Positions 22,138 through 29,445 of a stretch of DNA of 40,069 nucleotides are shown in pieces (the stretch's first letter is position 1; each line of letters starts with the position of its first letter). The stretch comes from an uncultured Bacteroidales bacterium (GTDB lineage: Bacteria; Bacteroidota; Bacteroidia; Bacteroidales; P3): contig CALUMK010000025.1 of the NCBI GenBank assembly GCA_944321735.1, positions 1 through 40,069 of the forward strand, in the 5' to 3' direction. A program made the position numbers and the translations under genes. Under the pieces are notes generated by a model. The model ran no database searches and was not told the DNA's origin. It worked only from the letters and a program-made list of their open reading frames with translations.

Positions 22138-22270
22138 TTTTTCCGTTTTTGCATGAGGATTTTTCACTCCTTCTCCTCGGTCGAGCCGGGGGGCAACGGG
22201 CGATATGGGCAATACCACGGTATAGTGACGAAAACCTGATAGTCGGCAGTGACAGTGTGGGAAAGAAATG

Positions 22271-22336: not shown

Positions 22337-23128
22337 ATGAATCAAGAAAAGAAGGGTGGTGTTTGCGTTGTGGCCGATGATGACATTGGGTTTTTAGATG
22401 ACCTTTGCGCGGGCTTGCGTGCAAGGAATGTATTTAAAAGCGTGATGCCGTTTGCCCGGATAGATGAGGCTATTGCTTATATAAGGACACATTCGGTAGC
22501 TTTGTTCGTATCGGATATTGAATTTCCCGATGGCGAGCTGAGCTACCACCATCTTTCGCTCATACCGTCCGTTCCGGTCATCTTGTTGACGGTGCATGGC
22601 CGTTATTTCATGGATCATTTATCCTCCATTGTTGTCAACAGGAACGTCCTAGGGACGGCATTGAAGTTTGCATTTCCGGATATAAGCCAAGAGATAGTAC
22701 GGCGGTACGAGTTGGCCAAGGCGGAAGGCTTGGATAAAGCGGTCATCAAGGAGACAGCCACGAATACGACTATAGAGCTGTACAGATTTGATACGGTGAA
22801 CCCGAGGCCATTTGAGGTCAGGTATAGCGAGATGGCTATGATTACTGTTTCCCGTCAACCGCGAGGTCTGCGTTTCCACCTAAACAACAACCTGCACAAA
22901 TATTATCTGCCTTACAGGAGTCTGCAGGAATGCTTTGTGGAGTTGGATCGTTCTTGCCCCGGTCTTTTTTTCCTGATTCCCCATAAAGGCATTCTAAATT
23001 TGTGGAATATGGCTTTGTCGGGATGCTTGGCCGTTTCAATCCGGAGCGAGGGAGTCAAGTATGAGTTGAAAATTCCGAAAGCGGTATTGCCTACGTTGAA
23101 GGCGCTTATGGACGGATGGACAAGATAA
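22337..23128 (+). CDS. LytTR-like response regulator
   Basis: This 263-residue protein has an N-terminal receiver domain: acidic cluster ADDD at residues 13-16, phospho-acceptor Asp60 in VSDIEFPDG, and conserved Thr85 in LLTVHG. The usual lysine of the beta5 loop is not evident. The C-terminal ~100 residues resemble a divergent LytTR DNA-binding domain, with a FFLIPHKGILNL segment like the family's HRSYIVNL region. The ATG at 22337 is chosen because the -7 box lies at 22271-22278; ATG 22322 is also possible. It converges with a LytS-like kinase and overlaps its 3' end by 23 bp. The two are a probable two-component pair. Confidence 0.72.
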   Translation: MNQEKKGGVCVVADDDIGFLDDLCAGLRARNVFKSVMPFARIDEAIAYIRTHSVALFVSDIEFPDGELSYHHLSLIPSVPVILLTVHGRYFMDHLSSIVVNRNVLGTALKFAFPDISQEIVRRYELAKAEGLDKAVIKETATNTTIELYRFDTVNPRPFEVRYSEMAMITVSRQPRGLRFHLNNNLHKYYLPYRSLQECFVELDRSCPGLFFLIPHKGILNLWNMALSGCLAVSIRSEGVKYELKIPKAVLPTLKALMDGWTR

Positions 23129-24164
23129 ATGTGCATGTTTGGTCTTGGATATCGTATTTCAAAGAGGCTTCTTCGCGGTATATCAACGCGAGTTTCTTTG
23201 CCAGGAAGGATAGGCCATTGCTTCCGTGAATATTAAAAACCGTTGTCGGGTTCGAGACCTTGTTTCTGAACCGTATTTGTATCCATTCCGGACTTTTGCT
23301 GAAATCGAATTCCACGGACATTTTGCCCTGCGGGCCGGTAATCCCATGCTTGAACAGGTTGCTGATTAAAGGCTCTGTTATCAAAGGAGGGATATAAACC
23401 GGAGGGATTTTTTGAGGGCAGATGAACGAAATCGGGGTGTCTGGAAAATGTTTCTGGTAAAAAGCGGTCAAGCGTCTAGCGAAAGCCACTTCCTTGTCTA
23501 AGGCATAGATGACGCAACTGTTGTGTTCGTAGCTGTATTGGTACAAATCCATGTATTCTTGGAGATCATGCCAGCTGTCAGGATGGTCTTTTTGGTACAC
23601 CCTTAACATATCTTGGGTGAAATGGCAGTGAGAGCGATAGTTTTGGATTTCTTTTTGAAGTCTTTCTTTTTCTTTGAGATGGTTGACTTGGTTTTGTAGT
23701 AACTTGTTGTATTGGAAAGCATCCTTGTAGAGGAGGCCGAAACCGACAATGGCGAAGAGGGCGAAGTCGCGGAGCGAGATGGCGATTAGTGTCTCTTTTT
23801 GCATGTACTGTTTGGATTCTTGGTAGTCGATGCCGGGATTGTCAGTCGGGATGTGGCCGATAATGGTATCGATGACGTAGAAGTATTCCATGCAGATAAT
23901 GAGGATGCAAATGAGGATGCTGGAGCATAGGAATGCTTTGATTTTTCCCTTTCGGTAGAAGCTCTTGAAGGCCAGGAAATAGAAGAGGTAAACGCCAAAC
24001 GGGATGAGGAAGAATGAATAGCGTTCGTGTTGCGGGTCGGAAAAATACCTCCACGTGCTTAGGCGCCATATAGCGTAGAAACAAAGCCATGCCACGATTT
24101 GGATGATTATCCAGAAAGCTTTGCTTTTGTTCCCGTCTTTAGGGAAGGTTTTTAGGGAATTCAT
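23106..24164 (-). CDS. LytS-like sensor histidine kinase
   Basis: This 352-residue inner-membrane protein has four transmembrane segments (about 16-36, 50-69, 77-97 and 127-146), a short coiled coil (155-175) and a His_kinase-type cytoplasmic region. The phospho-acceptor region is unusual: SHCHFTQDML (His181-Phe182) replaces the typical PHFLFNSLN. The ATP-binding N-box PPLITEPLISNLFKHG (Asn269) and a G-box GSNGLSFLAKKL near 314-325 are recognisable. It starts 2 bp after the stop of the Cys/His-rich lipoprotein, so both are one operon. It is likely the partner of the convergent LytTR-like regulator. Confidence 0.82.
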   Translation of the reverse strand: MNSLKTFPKDGNKSKAFWIIIQIVAWLCFYAIWRLSTWRYFSDPQHERYSFFLIPFGVYLFYFLAFKSFYRKGKIKAFLCSSILICILIICMEYFYVIDTIIGHIPTDNPGIDYQESKQYMQKETLIAISLRDFALFAIVGFGLLYKDAFQYNKLLQNQVNHLKEKERLQKEIQNYRSHCHFTQDMLRVYQKDHPDSWHDLQEYMDLYQYSYEHNSCVIYALDKEVAFARRLTAFYQKHFPDTPISFICPQKIPPVYIPPLITEPLISNLFKHGITGPQGKMSVEFDFSKSPEWIQIRFRNKVSNPTTVFNIHGSNGLSFLAKKLALIYREEASLKYDIQDQTCTFILSIRP

Positions 24165-24166
24165 GG

Positions 24167-24691
24167 TTATGCGTTAGGATGCAAGGGTTGAACCGTGAAG
24201 GTAATGCTTTTTATGATAAAGCAGCGGGATTCCGGATGCCGTTGCAGGATTTGTTCCGGGATGTTGAGCCACATTTGTTCTTTTTCCATATAAAAAGAGC
24301 GGGCCGGCATGGAAAAGGTTTCATAGTCGGAAATGTCTTCCGGGTAGAGGCATTTTCCTGTGTAAAGGCCGGAGGATGTCGGTAAACTCTTGACAATGGG
24401 TTCCAATTCTATGTTCCCGAACAACGGGCATTCTTTTCCTGTTCCTTGGCAGTCTATATGCTTGTGGGTTTGGCTACAAGAGCCATCACAATTTTCTTTT
24501 GAGTGCCCAGCCCGGGTTTTGATTCCTATGACATGACCGCCTTTGGCGTTTCTGTCTGTGACCCATTGCGCTGTGGATTCGATAGCGTTCTGGTGATTCC
24601 TGTCTTTTTCTTCTTGAAAAGTTTCTTGGGTACATCCCCAGACTAAAATAAGGCTGATGCTTGCGAGATAGAAGGTGATTTTTCTTACCAT
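24167..24691 (-). CDS. Cys/His-rich lipoprotein upstream of the histidine kinase
   Basis: This 174-residue protein has a lipoprotein signal ending LVWGC, with Cys20 as the likely lipidated residue. The mature part contains a compact cluster of possible metal or redox ligands: Cys68, Cys72, His76, His78, Cys81 and Cys88. I do not recognise a named family. It is co-transcribed with the LytS-like kinase (2-bp gap) and so may be an accessory sensor that detects a metal, thiol or surface signal; this is inference. The ATG at 24689-24691 gives a well-formed signal sequence. Confidence 0.72.
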   Translation of the reverse strand: MVRKITFYLASISLILVWGCTQETFQEEKDRNHQNAIESTAQWVTDRNAKGGHVIGIKTRAGHSKENCDGSCSQTHKHIDCQGTGKECPLFGNIELEPIVKSLPTSSGLYTGKCLYPEDISDYETFSMPARSFYMEKEQMWLNIPEQILQRHPESRCFIIKSITFTVQPLHPNA

Positions 24692-24815
24692 GGTAGTTTG
24701 TTTTTTTGTTGTTTATCTTGCGTGTCTCGTGGGACGAGACTGTTTGGCTAATCCAATAAAAATACAAAGAGAAGCATTTTTTTTCGAAATAGAAAAAATG
24801 TCTTTCCTGAAAATC

Positions 24816-24837
24816 CATTTTAGCCACATTTTAGCCA
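24816..24837 (+). promoter_or_regulatory. Tandem 11-bp operator pair, left
   Basis: CATTTTAGCCA occurs twice with no gap (24816-24826 and 24827-24837), one helical turn apart. It lies 125 bp upstream of the minus-strand lipoprotein start. The same element recurs inverted at 25017-25038. The CATTTTAG part resembles binding boxes of some LytTR regulators (ComE-type CAnTTcAG), which makes the nearby LytTR-like regulator a candidate binder. Confidence 0.6.
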
Positions 24838-25016
24838 AGGTGGTTTTTACAATATATAAGAAAACAGTGTTTTATATCGTATTTTGATGAAATGAAAAAT
24901 ATGTCGGCTATGTCTTTTTGGGGGTATGGAGAGAGAATAATGGACTGGACTCAAGAAAATACAAACTTTTTTATTTTGATAAAATATACATTTATATGTA
25001 ATTATAAGGATTGCTC

Positions 25017-25038
25017 TGGCTGAAATGTGGCTGTAATG
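25017..25038 (-). promoter_or_regulatory. Tandem 11-bp operator pair, right (inverted)
   Basis: On the plus strand TGGCTGAAATG (25017-25027) is followed directly by TGGCTGTAATG (25028-25038). The reverse complements, CATTTCAGCCA and CATTACAGCCA, match the left pair's CATTTTAGCCA at 10 and 9 of 11 positions. It lies 172 bp upstream of the S74-domain gene start and mirrors the left pair across the divergent region. Confidence 0.6.
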
Positions 25039-25209
25039 ACTTTCGCATGAGCTGCAGGCTTGGAAGAAATGCGTAATATTTTCATTTTTGCCCTGCTGAT
25101 GATGGCGAACATGCTTCGACCTGAAAGGCATTAGTAAAACAGGCACCTCTAAAATCGAACGGAACAAAAAAGGATTTATCGATAGTATTAACTTTAAAAA
25201 TTTATGGTT

Positions 25210-26280
25210 ATGAAAGTGTTGAAAAATCGTATCGTTCTTGCGACTGCTTTGTCTCTGGTAACATTCAGTCTGAATGCGCAGATTTTGGTTCAAGAAGACG
25301 GTGGAGTGCGGATTGGAACGCCCCATGTGCCTTCGTCCGGCATCACGATAGGCACTCCGACCTGGCAGCTTTCCACAAAAGGTCTGGAGGTATCGGTGGG
25401 GGATATTTTGTTCCATACAGCCAACGGAAATCTTCGTTTTGTCGATTTTCGGACCATGGTGGGTACGAGTAGTGGAGGCATTGCAGGGCAGACCTATGTC
25501 AATGCTACAGCTATCACGGGTTCCAACTTGAGTATTGGGATGAGCAGCCAGTACGCTTTTCGCGTTTATGCCAATGAAATTTACAGTTCCTCATCACAGA
25601 AGGTTATCTCGGATCGCCGCTATAAGGACAACATTGTGGATTTGGAAGATGCCACGGCGAAGGTGCTGCAATTGCGTCCGGTATCATTTGACCTCAAGAC
25701 CCCGGAAAATTATGCTGGCGACACGATGGCACTCAAAGGAAAAGTGGGGTTCATCGCGCAGGAAGTACAGGAGCTATTTCCGAATCTGGTAGGATATCTC
25801 CCGGATGCAGACCAATATGTTTTGGACTACACTTCTTTTATTCCATATTTGACCCAGAGCATCCAGCGGCAGGCGCAACAGATAGAAGAACAAGAAGAAA
25901 GAATAGCAGAATTGGAGATGACAGTGGAGATGTTGTTGACGAGCCTATCGGACGTGCAGACGCGTGCGCCTCAAGTTCCTGTCACTGGCAGCGAGGGGGC
26001 GAACTTGGCGATTTCTCATGCCAAACTGTATCAGAATATTCCCAATCCTTTTTCCGGCACTACGGAAATAAGATACGAGTTGCCGGAGGATGTGCATTCA
26101 GCCAGTATTGAGATTCATACGGCGGCAGGACAAAAGGTGGAAAGCAGAGTGTTGCCGCTCAAGCCTGGAGCAGGTACGGTGTTTTTTGAAAGTAGGGATT
26201 TCGCCACAGGTACTCATGTTTACAGCTTGATTGTGGACGGACAGTTAGTCTCCACCAAACGAATGGTCGTATCGGAATAA
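25210..26280 (+). CDS. Secreted protein with S74 (endosialidase-type) chaperone domain and T9SS sorting domain
   Basis: This 356-residue protein starts at ATG 25210 (an ATG 6 bases earlier is in frame), with a signal peptide ending SLNA-Q. An N-terminal beta-rich region precedes a Peptidase_S74 intramolecular chaperone domain starting at SDRRYKDNI. Ser134 and Lys139 have the five-residue Ser-Lys spacing of the self-cleaving dyad in phage tailspike chaperones. GKVGFIAQEVQELFPN is also typical of S74. A coiled coil (about 218-245) and a T9SS type A sorting domain follow. S74 domains help trimers fold and then cut themselves off. It is the first gene of a three-gene operon with a C25 protease 10 bp downstream. 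Confidence 0.85.
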   Translation: MKVLKNRIVLATALSLVTFSLNAQILVQEDGGVRIGTPHVPSSGITIGTPTWQLSTKGLEVSVGDILFHTANGNLRFVDFRTMVGTSSGGIAGQTYVNATAITGSNLSIGMSSQYAFRVYANEIYSSSSQKVISDRRYKDNIVDLEDATAKVLQLRPVSFDLKTPENYAGDTMALKGKVGFIAQEVQELFPNLVGYLPDADQYVLDYTSFIPYLTQSIQRQAQQIEEQEERIAELEMTVEMLLTSLSDVQTRAPQVPVTGSEGANLAISHAKLYQNIPNPFSGTTEIRYELPEDVHSASIEIHTAAGQKVESRVLPLKPGAGTVFFESRDFATGTHVYSLIVDGQLVSTKRMVVSE

Positions 26281-26290
26281 ACCCTGAGCC

Positions 26291-28558
26291 ATGAAAACAT
26301 CGAATTTGTTATTGAAAGCGCGAGGATGCCTGTTTTTGATAGCGGCAACTTTCCTTCCATTTTTCGTTTTTGCCCAGACAACGGAAACGATCACGTTCAC
26401 ATTCAGCATGTCCGACTTTACTTTTGAGACCGATGCCCAAGGACAGGTTCATATAGCCTCGGACAAGTACGACCTTGTTTTTGGCGAAGACTTGGCCAAG
26501 CCAGCCATCCCCTACCGGACAGTCAGTATGCTGGCCAAACCGGCCGAGGTGTATTCGAATGTTTTGTTTACCTACAGCGGTGCCGTCAAGAAATCCAATG
26601 TCAGGCTGGCGTCCAACCCGGAGCAGATAGAGGTTGGGGCAGATCCTGGCCCCGTAGTCTTGGCCTCGTATCCCAATGGGACTTATCCGTCTTCCTCGGA
26701 ACGGGGCTATTTCTTGATGCAAGGGTTGATGGATGGTCACCGGATATTGAATTTCAAGTTCAGCCCATTCTTGTATAATGCTACGACTAGGGAATTGACT
26801 TTGTACACCACAGTGACGATGCGTGTGACGACCAAGGTAGCTTCTTACGATGTGCCGGAGAGCAAAGGGTCGATGAACGGTCTCATTCCAAGGTTGGTAG
26901 AAAATGCAGAGAAGGAGAAGGCTTATTATCCTGGTACGATACCTTCGGTAGGTACTTACGAATGGGGTCCGGGTTACTTGATTATCTGTCCGGAGGAATT
27001 GCGGGAGGCTTTTGAACCCTTACGGCAATGGAAGATGGAGAAAGGTCTGTACGCGAGGACACGGACATTGGAAGACATCTATAGTGCATACGAGGGCGAG
27101 ACGGAGGCTATAAAAATCAAACGGTGCATCCAGGATTATTACCTGCACAACGGGTTGAAGTATGTTCTGTTGGGGGGTAATGGCGCAAAGGTGCCGGTGG
27201 TTTATTGTGGTTCGAGTGAAATTCCTTCGGATTGGTTTTATGCCTGCCTGGATGATTCGGAAGAGTTTTCTTTCGATTGGAATGCGGACGAAGATGAATT
27301 GTTAGGAGAAGTATCTACAGATAAAATTGATTTGTACCCAGAAGTGGTTGTCTCTCGTGCTCCGATGGAAACTTTGGACGAGGTGGAAGCTTTTGTAAAT
27401 AAGACATTGGCCTATGAGCAGAATCCCCCTCAAGGTGATTGGTACAATGATATTTTATTTACAGGTGTTCGCTTGGGGGAACCGGATGAAGGCTTGAATC
27501 CAACAGAAGAGACCAGCCAATATTTGTACGAAAATTATATAGAGCCGTCTTTTCCTGCCGATATGCAGACTCTTTTTGGAAACAAATTTTTTGATAACAA
27601 GAATGAACCGACCTGTCTTGACGTGGAAGAGTTTCAGGCTAAGATACAAGAAGGATTCCATATTATTCATTTGATAGCCCATGGTGATAGGGATAAATTC
27701 TGTTTGTCCGCAAAGACAGGGGATAAACCGGAAGGTCGCGAATATTATACCATAACCCATGCCATGCAAATGAAGTCTGATGTTCCCTGCCTTTTTGTAG
27801 CGCTGTCATGCTGGACGAACGATTTTGGATATTCGAAAAATATGTCGCGTTATCTATTGAAGAATCCCAATAATGGTGTTTTTGCCTATATTGGGACTAC
27901 ACGATCAAGTTGGGTGAGTGGAAGTAACCACGTATATTCTGATGGGATTATTAGATTTCATTATTCTTTGTTTCATGAACTTTACGGTGGTGAAAATATA
28001 GGGAAGTTGGGTCTTTCTTATACAATGTCGAAAGTGGACAATATAGATGATGTCAATCATGCATATATGTTCAATATGTGTGGTGATCCGGAGACGCAGT
28101 TGTATTTGTCTGTGCCAAAACAATTCGCTCATATCAATATTTCGTTTTCTGAAGGAAAATTCCTTGTGGATGCCGGGGTGGATAGCTGTACTTTTGCTGT
28201 GCGCTACACGCGAGCATCAGGAGTTATATACAAACGGGAATACCGAGAAAATGTCCGGGCATATGAAATATCTTCCGGGGAGATTGAAAGTTGCGAAATC
28301 ACCTTGATGCACGATGACTACATTCCAAGGACATTTACCATCAACCCGGAATACATACAGAATGTGGCCTATTCCGGAACGGTGAATGTCTTTGGAGATG
28401 TGATTGTGGCTGGTAGGGCGATAACGGACAAGAAGCCGGTCGGCGATGTGATTATCCAATCGGGAAAAACTACTTTTTCGGCGGAAAAAAGTGTTATCTT
28501 AGCACCGGGATTTGAAGTGAAGAAAGGGGCTTCGTTCGAGGCCAAAATCAAAAAATAG
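26291..28558 (+). CDS. Gingipain-like C25 cysteine protease
   Basis: This 755-residue protein has a signal peptide ending VFA-Q and a propeptide-like N-terminal region (to about residue 210). A C25 peptidase domain follows, with catalytic His464 in LIAHGD and Cys507 in ALSCWTND; MCGDPETQL is a conserved late motif of the family. The C-terminus is not a canonical type A sorting domain: it ends SVILAPGFEVKKGASFEAKI, a short repeat-like beta segment seen at the end of other secreted Bacteroidota proteins. It probably acts on the surface or outside the cell. It lies 10 bp after the S74-domain gene and 11 bp before a lipoprotein gene, so all three are likely one transcript. Confidence 0.88.
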   Translation: MKTSNLLLKARGCLFLIAATFLPFFVFAQTTETITFTFSMSDFTFETDAQGQVHIASDKYDLVFGEDLAKPAIPYRTVSMLAKPAEVYSNVLFTYSGAVKKSNVRLASNPEQIEVGADPGPVVLASYPNGTYPSSSERGYFLMQGLMDGHRILNFKFSPFLYNATTRELTLYTTVTMRVTTKVASYDVPESKGSMNGLIPRLVENAEKEKAYYPGTIPSVGTYEWGPGYLIICPEELREAFEPLRQWKMEKGLYARTRTLEDIYSAYEGETEAIKIKRCIQDYYLHNGLKYVLLGGNGAKVPVVYCGSSEIPSDWFYACLDDSEEFSFDWNADEDELLGEVSTDKIDLYPEVVVSRAPMETLDEVEAFVNKTLAYEQNPPQGDWYNDILFTGVRLGEPDEGLNPTEETSQYLYENYIEPSFPADMQTLFGNKFFDNKNEPTCLDVEEFQAKIQEGFHIIHLIAHGDRDKFCLSAKTGDKPEGREYYTITHAMQMKSDVPCLFVALSCWTNDFGYSKNMSRYLLKNPNNGVFAYIGTTRSSWVSGSNHVYSDGIIRFHYSLFHELYGGENIGKLGLSYTMSKVDNIDDVNHAYMFNMCGDPETQLYLSVPKQFAHINISFSEGKFLVDAGVDSCTFAVRYTRASGVIYKREYRENVRAYEISSGEIESCEITLMHDDYIPRTFTINPEYIQNVAYSGTVNVFGDVIVAGRAITDKKPVGDVIIQSGKTTFSAEKSVILAPGFEVKKGASFEAKIKK

Positions 28559-28569
28559 GAGGGAGAAAT

Positions 28570-29445
28570 ATGAAAACAAAAGCTTTGAAATGGGCATTGG
28601 CCGTGTGCGGCCTTGGATTGGTGGCGTTCTTTGCCTGCAAGCCATCCGAAGAAGGATACGAAGGACCGCTGGAGTTCGCGGTCTTGCAATCGGGCGATTA
28701 TGCCGATGGACAGCCTGTCACGGACTATTACACGGTTTGCATGGACTATGAATCGTATGCGGAGATGTGGAACCGGCTTTCCTTGCCCGGAGAACCGGAA
28801 CAGATGAATTTCAATGCCTACTCCGTCTTGTGCATCGTGGACACTTTGCGTCCTTTCCCGATGTACCGCATAGGCGTGACGGGGGTGAACCAAACGCTGG
28901 ATTACGTGGAGGTTCAAGTGGAGCGGGCGGTGGATGCGCGGGTGGGCGGCCCGGTGCAGGCCTATGCCTTGGTCCGCGTGCCACGGATAAGCAAGGATGT
29001 GAAATGCGTGAACTTGCCGTTCGAGACAGGTATTGTCGACCCGTACATGCCGGAGTTAGGGACTTCAGAATGCCTGATGATAGCCAAGGAAGAGTACCCG
29101 GAGGAGACTTTCTGGTTCAAGTTCACCCCAGAGGGCAAGTTGTTGATAGAACGCCGGAACGTGTGGATGAATTGCGCTGAAACCACCTTGGAGGCATCGG
29201 TAACGCAAGATGGGGAAAAGCTGGCTATCAAGGAAGAGGAAGTTTTTCCCGATGACAGGTACATGGCTTGCGAATGTTCCAAGTATGCGGCTTACGAGAC
29301 CGATGTGGTCGTAGGCAACGATTCCCTGACGGTAGAGTTGTATACAAGTACATCAGCGATAACCCGAACTGCTGTTTTCAAGATTCCCGGCCATGGCAGC
29401 GGGGAAATCGTCATCGATGACACGGAGGTTTCCTACGGGAAATAG
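28570..29445 (+). CDS. Lipoprotein with PrcB-like domain, third gene of the C25 protease operon
   Basis: This 291-residue lipoprotein has a signal ending AFFAC, with Cys23 the likely lipidated residue. Residues ~35-140 have the pattern of a PrcB C-terminal-type domain (NAYSVLCIVD ... MYRIGVTGV ... YALVRVPR), named for a protease-complex subunit in Treponema. The second half contains paired cysteines (NCAETTLE ... ACECSKY) and is not assigned. A good ribosome site (AGGAGGGAG) precedes the ATG. Its place 11 bp behind a secreted protease suggests a partner, inhibitor or anchor of that protease; this is inference. A strong terminator follows. Confidence 0.72.
   Translation: MKTKALKWALAVCGLGLVAFFACKPSEEGYEGPLEFAVLQSGDYADGQPVTDYYTVCMDYESYAEMWNRLSLPGEPEQMNFNAYSVLCIVDTLRPFPMYRIGVTGVNQTLDYVEVQVERAVDARVGGPVQAYALVRVPRISKDVKCVNLPFETGIVDPYMPELGTSECLMIAKEEYPEETFWFKFTPEGKLLIERRNVWMNCAETTLEASVTQDGEKLAIKEEEVFPDDRYMACECSKYAAYETDVVVGNDSLTVELYTSTSAITRTAVFKIPGHGSGEIVIDDTEVSYGK

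Follow-up and report, generated by a model that had tools for sequence, protein, structure and literature searches.

The canonical binding site of LytTR regulators is given, in an excerpt of PMC11347149, as a pair of 9-bp repeats spaced 10–13 bp, and an excerpt of PMC4847170 describes the usual sites as repeats of 9–11 nt that are separated by 11–13 nt and lack a common consensus. In Bacteroides, the operators of the LytTR regulatory system (LRS) comprise 11-bp direct repeats 11 bp apart, followed after another 11 bp by TGTA-19 bp-TATCTTTG; the excerpted text states that the position of these repeats is conserved and their letters are not (PMC6193735), and by our own sum from this text they lie about 34 bp before the −7 box. 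For ArcA, a member of the OmpR/PhoB family, the excerpt of PMC3798270 reports two to five copies of direct repeats, 11 bp centre to centre. Among titles and abstract beginnings of the open-access literature, we found no paper on the gene cassette described here or on 11-bp tandem LytTR sites.

Here, we analyzed a stretch of 40,069 nucleotides from an uncultured Bacteroidales bacterium (the window), in which two oppositely oriented pairs of 11-bp repeats lie between divergent operons. Like LytTR systems of the YpdB and AgrA type, the locus combines direct repeats upstream of a putative promoter with a receiver-domain regulator and a LytS-like kinase; also as in LytTR systems, the geometry is conserved without a common consensus, and counterparts in other families carry a LytTR domain. 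In contrast to usual LytTR sites, the units found here adjoin directly at a period of one helical turn and number 2 to 6, and the arrays of some cassettes are mirrored between divergent operons. The 11-bp direct repeats, the unconserved letters and, in part, the distance to the promoter are shared with the Bacteroides LRS, whose repeats, however, leave 11 bp between them and are those of operons for a regulator plus membrane protein, whereas kinase, lipoprotein, and protease operon are concerned here. The ArcA box likewise consists of contiguous 11-bp direct repeats, but no winged helix was detected in the regulators linked to our arrays.

Mirrored 11-bp tandem pairs between divergent operons

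A preliminary description had reported two opposing tandem pairs of an 11-bp element, and sequence inspection as well as a pattern count found them exactly so. The left pair consists of two head-to-tail copies of CATTTTAGCCA at 24816–24837 on the forward strand, and the right pair is formed by CATTACAGCCA CATTTCAGCCA on the opposite strand (25038–25017). Read toward the lipoprotein–kinase operon, i.e., on the reverse strand, the left pair becomes TGGCTAAAATG TGGCTAAAATG and represents the candidate operator pair of that operon; the right pair (25017–25038), read on the forward strand toward the S74–C25 operon as the candidate operator pair of the latter, is TGGCTGAAATG TGGCTGTAATG. In these orientations, both pairs follow TGGCTRAAATG TGGCTRWAATG and are identical to each other at 19 of 22 positions. 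The units of each pair adjoin without a gap, 11 bp centre to centre, and 179 bp of AT-rich DNA separate the two 22-bp pairs. The lag-11 identity of the left pair (11/11) was reached in none of 500 shuffles. The pattern CATTNYAGCCA, which was derived from the tested sites themselves, matches the window four times against 0.18 expected matches, and none of 100 shuffles reached four.

To the left of the pairs, a conserved Cys/His-rich lipoprotein (24167–24691, reverse strand) is followed by a LytS-like membrane histidine kinase (23106–24164, reverse strand). The 3′ end of the kinase gene overlaps convergently with the gene of the proposed binder, a response regulator with a receiver and a divergent C-terminal domain (22337–23128, forward strand; its ORF opens at 22268). 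The lipoprotein does not belong to a Pfam family; its homologs share invariant Cys and His residues, and NCBIfam matches were weak (the PG1828 family in two of 11 proteins, with E 0.024 as the lowest value). To the right, the divergent operon comprises an S74-domain protein as the first gene (25204–26280, forward strand; PF13884, E 9.3e-16), a C25-family peptidase (26291–28558, forward strand; PF01364, E 2e-54), and a putative lipoprotein (28570–29445, forward strand), homologs of which follow C25 in L066 and L070, too. Pfam and NCBIfam scans of this third protein gave no match. The C25 peptidase additionally carries a C-terminal GCX_COOH (3-coathanger stack) domain.

In the whole 2.71-Mb genome, the two window sites were the only exact matches to the 22-bp tandem, and allowing up to two mismatches added two further tandems on other contigs, C12:67040–67061 and C4:63331–63352. 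Once redrawn for the functional orientation, the pattern yielded four sites without mismatch and another four at 2–3 mismatches in this genome; its reversed control gave 4 matches at up to 3 mismatches. Read toward their operons, the four sites (two in the window, C12, and C4) follow TGGCTRAAATG TGGYTRWARTG. The C12 site is oriented toward an S74–C10 operon, whose C10 peptidase was confirmed by Pfam (PF01640), and the C4 site flanks a shortened S74/C10 reading frame on the corresponding side. This C4 region (L014:1369–2703) is a shortened duplicate of the C12 locus in which the candidate operator pair is retained, and its reading frame begins S74-like and runs on as a C10 peptidase. Single 11-mers occurred 30 times in the genome, compared to 6 matches for the reversed control pattern. 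Of the 26 located outside the window, 23 lie within some ORF of at least 100 aa in any frame, one of them being the C12 site, whose ORF we take as spurious. The signal is therefore the tandem and not the single 11-mer, and a genome-wide regulon of single 11-mers was rejected on the same grounds. Tandem matches in two other genomes (G013 and G019) were read as chance, as neither genome has an S74 match or a kinase match.

Repeat geometry and letters across the cassette family

We defined the cassette unit as a lipoprotein, a LytS-like kinase, and a convergent regulator. A kinase search (E ≤ 1e-20) revealed 12 copies in 4 of 190 genomes of the family, all of them in the genus of the window. In all 12 cassettes, the regulator gene lies tail to tail with the kinase gene and the lipoprotein gene is located upstream, with just a 53-aa piece of the lipoprotein being read in G011 C102. 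The divergent gene encodes an S74 protein in seven of the 12 cassettes (the window, C30, and C5 of its genome; C29, C160, and C52 of G011; C55 of G009). The same probably applies to G009 C3, as the end of this contig resembles the region upstream of the S74 gene on C59. Another gene with a signal-like start takes this place in G001 C8, G011 C102, and G001 C1, and the divergent gene of the C15 cassette lies beyond the contig.

An array of 11-bp period was found by inspection upstream of the lipoprotein gene in 11 of the 12 cassettes. In the twelfth, G009 C3, the array lies beyond a transposase-like gene inserted next to the lipoprotein gene, which probably separates the operon from its putative operator. 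This inserted gene (L190:5492–6442 / L228) carries HTH_38 and rve domains, and we take it to be of the IS30 type. Across cassettes, the arrays contain 2 to 6 unit copies of differing sequence: besides two copies of TGGCTAAAATG in the window, we could identify two to three copies of TGGTTGGNNNN in C30 and G011 C29, two of TGGTTGARAYW in G009 C55, four units near TGCCTGRGTGT/CGGCTGRATGT in C5, G011 C102, and G001 C1, TGGTTGGCTCG in G011 C52, TGGTTRTAATT in G001 C8, the AT-rich CGATTTTATTT in C15 and G011 C160, and four or more units near TGGCTGAATGT in G009 C3. In several four-unit arrays, copy 1 resembles copy 3 and copy 2 resembles copy 4. Mirror-image pairs are present in the window, C30, G011 C29, and G009 C55, with an identity of 18–20 of 22 positions within a locus; the candidate operators chosen for the four cassettes of the window's genome share just 9–11 of 22 positions with one another. 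Repeat letters vary between cassettes, and the 11-bp geometry is largely fixed. Conservation in related intergenic regions, on which the preliminary description had staked its proposal, was accordingly mixed: the letters are not kept, but the 11-bp geometry mostly is, and the mirrored layout is kept in part.

The period was quantified by summing the best 11-base self-match per lag (5–30) and comparing it with 500 dinucleotide shuffles. For 11 of the 12 family regions (G009 C3 was left out), the sum was 108 at lag 11 (shuffles 80.2, sd 2.7; z 10.2) and 102 at lag 22 (shuffles 80.1, sd 2.7; z 8.2), followed by 90 at lag 10 (z 3.4), and none of the 500 shuffles reached any of the three values. 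The lag-22 signal stems mainly from longer arrays and agrees with the likeness of copies 1 and 3 and of copies 2 and 4. Singly, the lag-11 scores of C30, C5, and G011 C102 were reached by about 1 in 10 shuffles, the best lag-11 stretch of C30 being a T-rich run and not its array. C15 and G011 C160 are not independent, as they share the same array letters.

Using the lipoprotein profile on 392 further genomes of the order, we found ten more copies, distributed over 5 genomes from two other families. These distant loci, a separate but not blind sample since the sequences were inspected before scanning, peaked at lag 11 (z 4.0; 0 of 500 shuffles) and lag 21 (z 3.4; 1 of 500), with lags 15, 12, and 22 next (z 2.4, 2.2, and 2.0). 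Individually significant were the 11-bp repeats of L232, L233, L238, and L244 and the 21-bp repeats of L234 and L240; the other four of the ten were not clear alone (L239 weak, 122 of 500; borderline signals at lag 22 in L235 and at lag 21 in L242; L236 none). Inspection of L232 and L233 again revealed two facing arrays. The wider stretch of L233 contains a divergent gene of the endonuclease/exonuclease/phosphatase family with a signal-like start (L247:2570–3388), which suggests that the controlled cargo is exchangeable between cassettes.

We further compared 26 regions upstream of S74 genes, 13 from cassette genomes and 13 from genomes without a cassette; 9 of 35 upstream regions (other genera, and L096) were left out, for G009 C65, the region in front of the first gene was used in place of that of the S74 gene, and for G009 C59, the terminal part of contig C3. 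Arrays co-occur with the cassette: a type A or type B array (0–1 mismatch, either orientation) was present in 10 of the 13 regions from cassette genomes, and in genomes without a cassette, no region matched exactly (0 of 13) and 2 of 13 came within one mismatch of the short type-A pattern. The array points toward the S74 gene in six of the 13 regions (C25, i.e., the window, C30, and C12 of the same genome; G011 C29; C55 and C19 of G009) and away from it in four (C5; G011 C52; C59 and C65 of G009). The remaining three are C18 and its G001 counterpart, both without an array, and G011 C160, which has just an AT-rich one. With six arrays toward and four away, control of S74 by its own pair would apply to part of the cassettes, including the window. 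Within G009, sites of the type seen in the C55 cassette are also present at C19, next to S74–C10, and at C32, near a shortened frame of the Porph_ging family, and the array type of C3 recurs as six units near the end of contig C65. The latter six contiguous 11-bp units (L230, about 430–500) lie near a gene encoding a BNR-repeat protein.

Candidate promoters and the proposed binder

Downstream of the left pair, at a distance of 43 bp, we found the putative −7 box TCTCTTTG (24765–24772, reverse strand), which fits 5 of 6 consensus positions and is tied with TATTTTTA at 51. The right pair is followed at 44 bp by CATTTTTG (25083–25090, forward strand), a putative −7 box that also fits 5 of 6 positions and is the single best candidate. 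For 15 arrays, which are related by descent and not independent, the best match to TAnnTTTG was recorded 20–61 bp downstream of the last two units; C15, G011 C160, G009 C3, C65, and C32, and the C4 duplicate were left out. The best match was a single position, i.e., 33, 43, 44, or 53, in nine of the 15 arrays, and one of 33, 34, 43, 44, and 53 was tied with other positions in the remaining six. Phase concentration was 0.74 with a peak at 10.5–10.7 bp and was reached by none of 1000 shuffles; since periods of 9–12 likewise gave 0 of 1000, this reflects clustering more than an exact period. G009 C32 has TAACATTG at offset 44. In one distant family, four arrays are followed by TACATTTG or TACTTTTG at 10, 21, 28, and 24 bp past the array end, and three of the four offsets equal 32 when all are hand-counted in one frame starting from the first two units. 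LytTR repeats usually lie about 10–11 bp before the −35/−33 element; a −7 offset of 33/34, which would suit this placement, is found in part of the arrays, and the window pairs are placed one turn further (43/44).

On their outer side, type-A arrays share a conserved flank of about 16 bp with a consensus near AAGNAATCTTTGTAAT, in which a −7 box directed inward may begin at a distance of 4 bp. Its counterparts in the window are AGGTGGTTTTTACAAT at the left pair (24838–24853, forward strand) and GAGCAATCCTTATAAT at the right pair (25001–25016, reverse strand). This flank could belong to the operator or to a promoter that faces inward.

Regarding the regulators, a Response_reg domain was detected in all 12 family members at E up to 1, with E 0.004 and 17.7 bits against a cut-off of 30.2 for the window regulator, and the receiver residues D14, D15, D60, and K110 are invariant in all 12. 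The preliminary description had called the protein at 22337–23128 LytTR-like. Pfam LytTR matched none of the 12 family regulators, the window's included, and a PF04397 search of the window's genome returned two other proteins only. A profile comparison between the C-terminal domain and LytTR was weak (P 0.005; 1 of 150 permuted decoys scored higher) and placed an F-x-R-hydrophobic-H-R-S motif in register; the five-regulator subgroup of the window alone gave P 0.13. An AlphaFold single-sequence model of the window regulator reached a pLDDT of 36.6, too poor for fold comparison. In distant loci, however, all four regulators scanned at the same position (L245, L246, L247, and L254) carry LytTR above the cut-off, with E 1.6e-8 to 1.4e-13, and they align with the window protein along its C-terminal domain. 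As same-position regulators elsewhere carry this domain, LytTR is most likely the family of the binder by descent, which upholds the earlier assignment by relationship, although Pfam misses the window protein itself. In one genus of another family (L249 to L253), the lipoprotein gene lies beside a gene for a membrane-type LytTR protein in five of five loci, instead of kinase and regulator. The proteins of L249, L250, and L251 gave winged-helix matches as well. The repeat period in this genus is 21 bp in two loci and 11 bp in L244/L253, and the other two loci show no clear period.

Six of the 12 family kinases, but not that of the window, match PF06580 (His_kinase) with E up to 1, the lowest value being 6.8e-7. 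A profile of the 12 kinases matches a histidine kinase structure at 1.5e-6, a distant homolog scored 3.5e-21, and H179, H181, N269, and H273 are invariant. Regulators and operators covary (r 0.70); as the receiver domain alone does so equally strongly (r 0.71), this points to co-inheritance and not to contact. ComE follows the canonical 9-bp repeat pair. The likeness of one half of the window element to a ComE-type box, which had been put forward earlier, was dropped, because related cassettes do not share the repeat letters and the units adjoin at 11 bp instead of having the canonical spacing.

A proposed circuit and competing readings

The mirrored pairs are very probably the operators of the adjoining two-component system. 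Taken as a whole, we consider it likely that the regulator encoded at 22337–23128 binds both pairs, activates both operons, and acts in trans on C12 and C4. The lipoprotein and the membrane kinase encoded at 23106–24691 would sense a signal, and the phosphorylated regulator would bind the 11-bp repeats head to tail, as two or more monomers on one helix face, docking at a distance of three to five helical turns before a −7 box of the Bacteroidetes type. The regulator would activate its own lipoprotein–kinase operon to the left and the S74–C25 protease operon to the right, activation being assumed from LytTR practice; the S74–C10 locus on C12 and its shortened C4 duplicate would probably be reached in trans. 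The earlier proposal of one regulator for both divergent operons is supported by the cassettes with a mirrored layout (C30, G011 C29, G009 C55, and two distant ones) and by sites of the same type elsewhere. As the other cassettes of this genome have their own regulators and their own repeat letters, the circuits look insulated from each other.

The contiguous geometry would also suit a winged-helix regulator of the OmpR/PhoB type, given that ArcA sites share it according to the excerpt of PMC3798270. We regard such a binder as quite unlikely, since a scan of the 12 linked regulators revealed no winged-helix domain at E up to 1, the distant counterparts are LytTR proteins, and an unlinked global regulator would leave the cassette-specific letters unexplained. 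A phase-variable promoter segment, with the mirrored pairs as its inverted repeats, is highly improbable: invertible promoters are known in Bacteroidales, and the window does hold 22-bp inverted arms around 179 bp of AT-rich DNA, but these arms match at 19 of 22 positions only, are internally tandem at an 11-bp period, and have the predicted −7 boxes outside; several related cassettes, moreover, have a one-sided array and hence no inverted pair.

The outer flanks raise the question of whether promoters directed inward have a −33 region that overlaps with the arrays, so that each pair would control the opposite operon, perhaps through a repressor. Many type-A arrays have a −7-like box that begins 4 bp beyond their outer end, and the mean −7 score at this inward offset is 3.58 of 6 (12 type-A arrays) compared to 3.53 at the outward offset of 44 (15 arrays). 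However, the window has only poor boxes in the inward direction (AATCCTTA and GGTTTTTA), the three type-B arrays examined lack the flank, and four arrays of one distant family have a perfect outward TANNTTTG, which leaves this arrangement unlikely. That the repeats are chance features without function has next to no weight for us; AT-rich DNA often contains short repeats in two copies, and three cassettes (C30, C5, and G011 C102) do not exceed at lag 11 what about 1 in 10 shuffles reaches, but the pooled shuffle tests and the distant loci argue against it.

Returning to operators of the adjoining two-component system, we see an even chance that the cassettes represent a Bacteroidales family of self-contained secretion switches, each with its own lipoprotein, kinase, divergent LytTR regulator, and private, recoded one-turn operator, and often with an effector operon. 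The effectors would then be a C25 or C10 protease and, elsewhere, a nuclease-like gene. If this is true, paralogs keep the geometry and rewrite the letters, by which several circuits would be kept apart in one cell, and binding head to tail on a single-turn array would be a mode new to LytTR regulators. The 12 related cassettes and the distant ones form a natural series in which the geometry is largely fixed and both letters and regulator vary, and which may be useful for understanding DNA choice by LytTR-type regulators and the avoidance of cross-talk among related circuits in one cell. The locus provides testable operators and target genes for sensor systems that apparently control secreted proteases of Bacteroidales.
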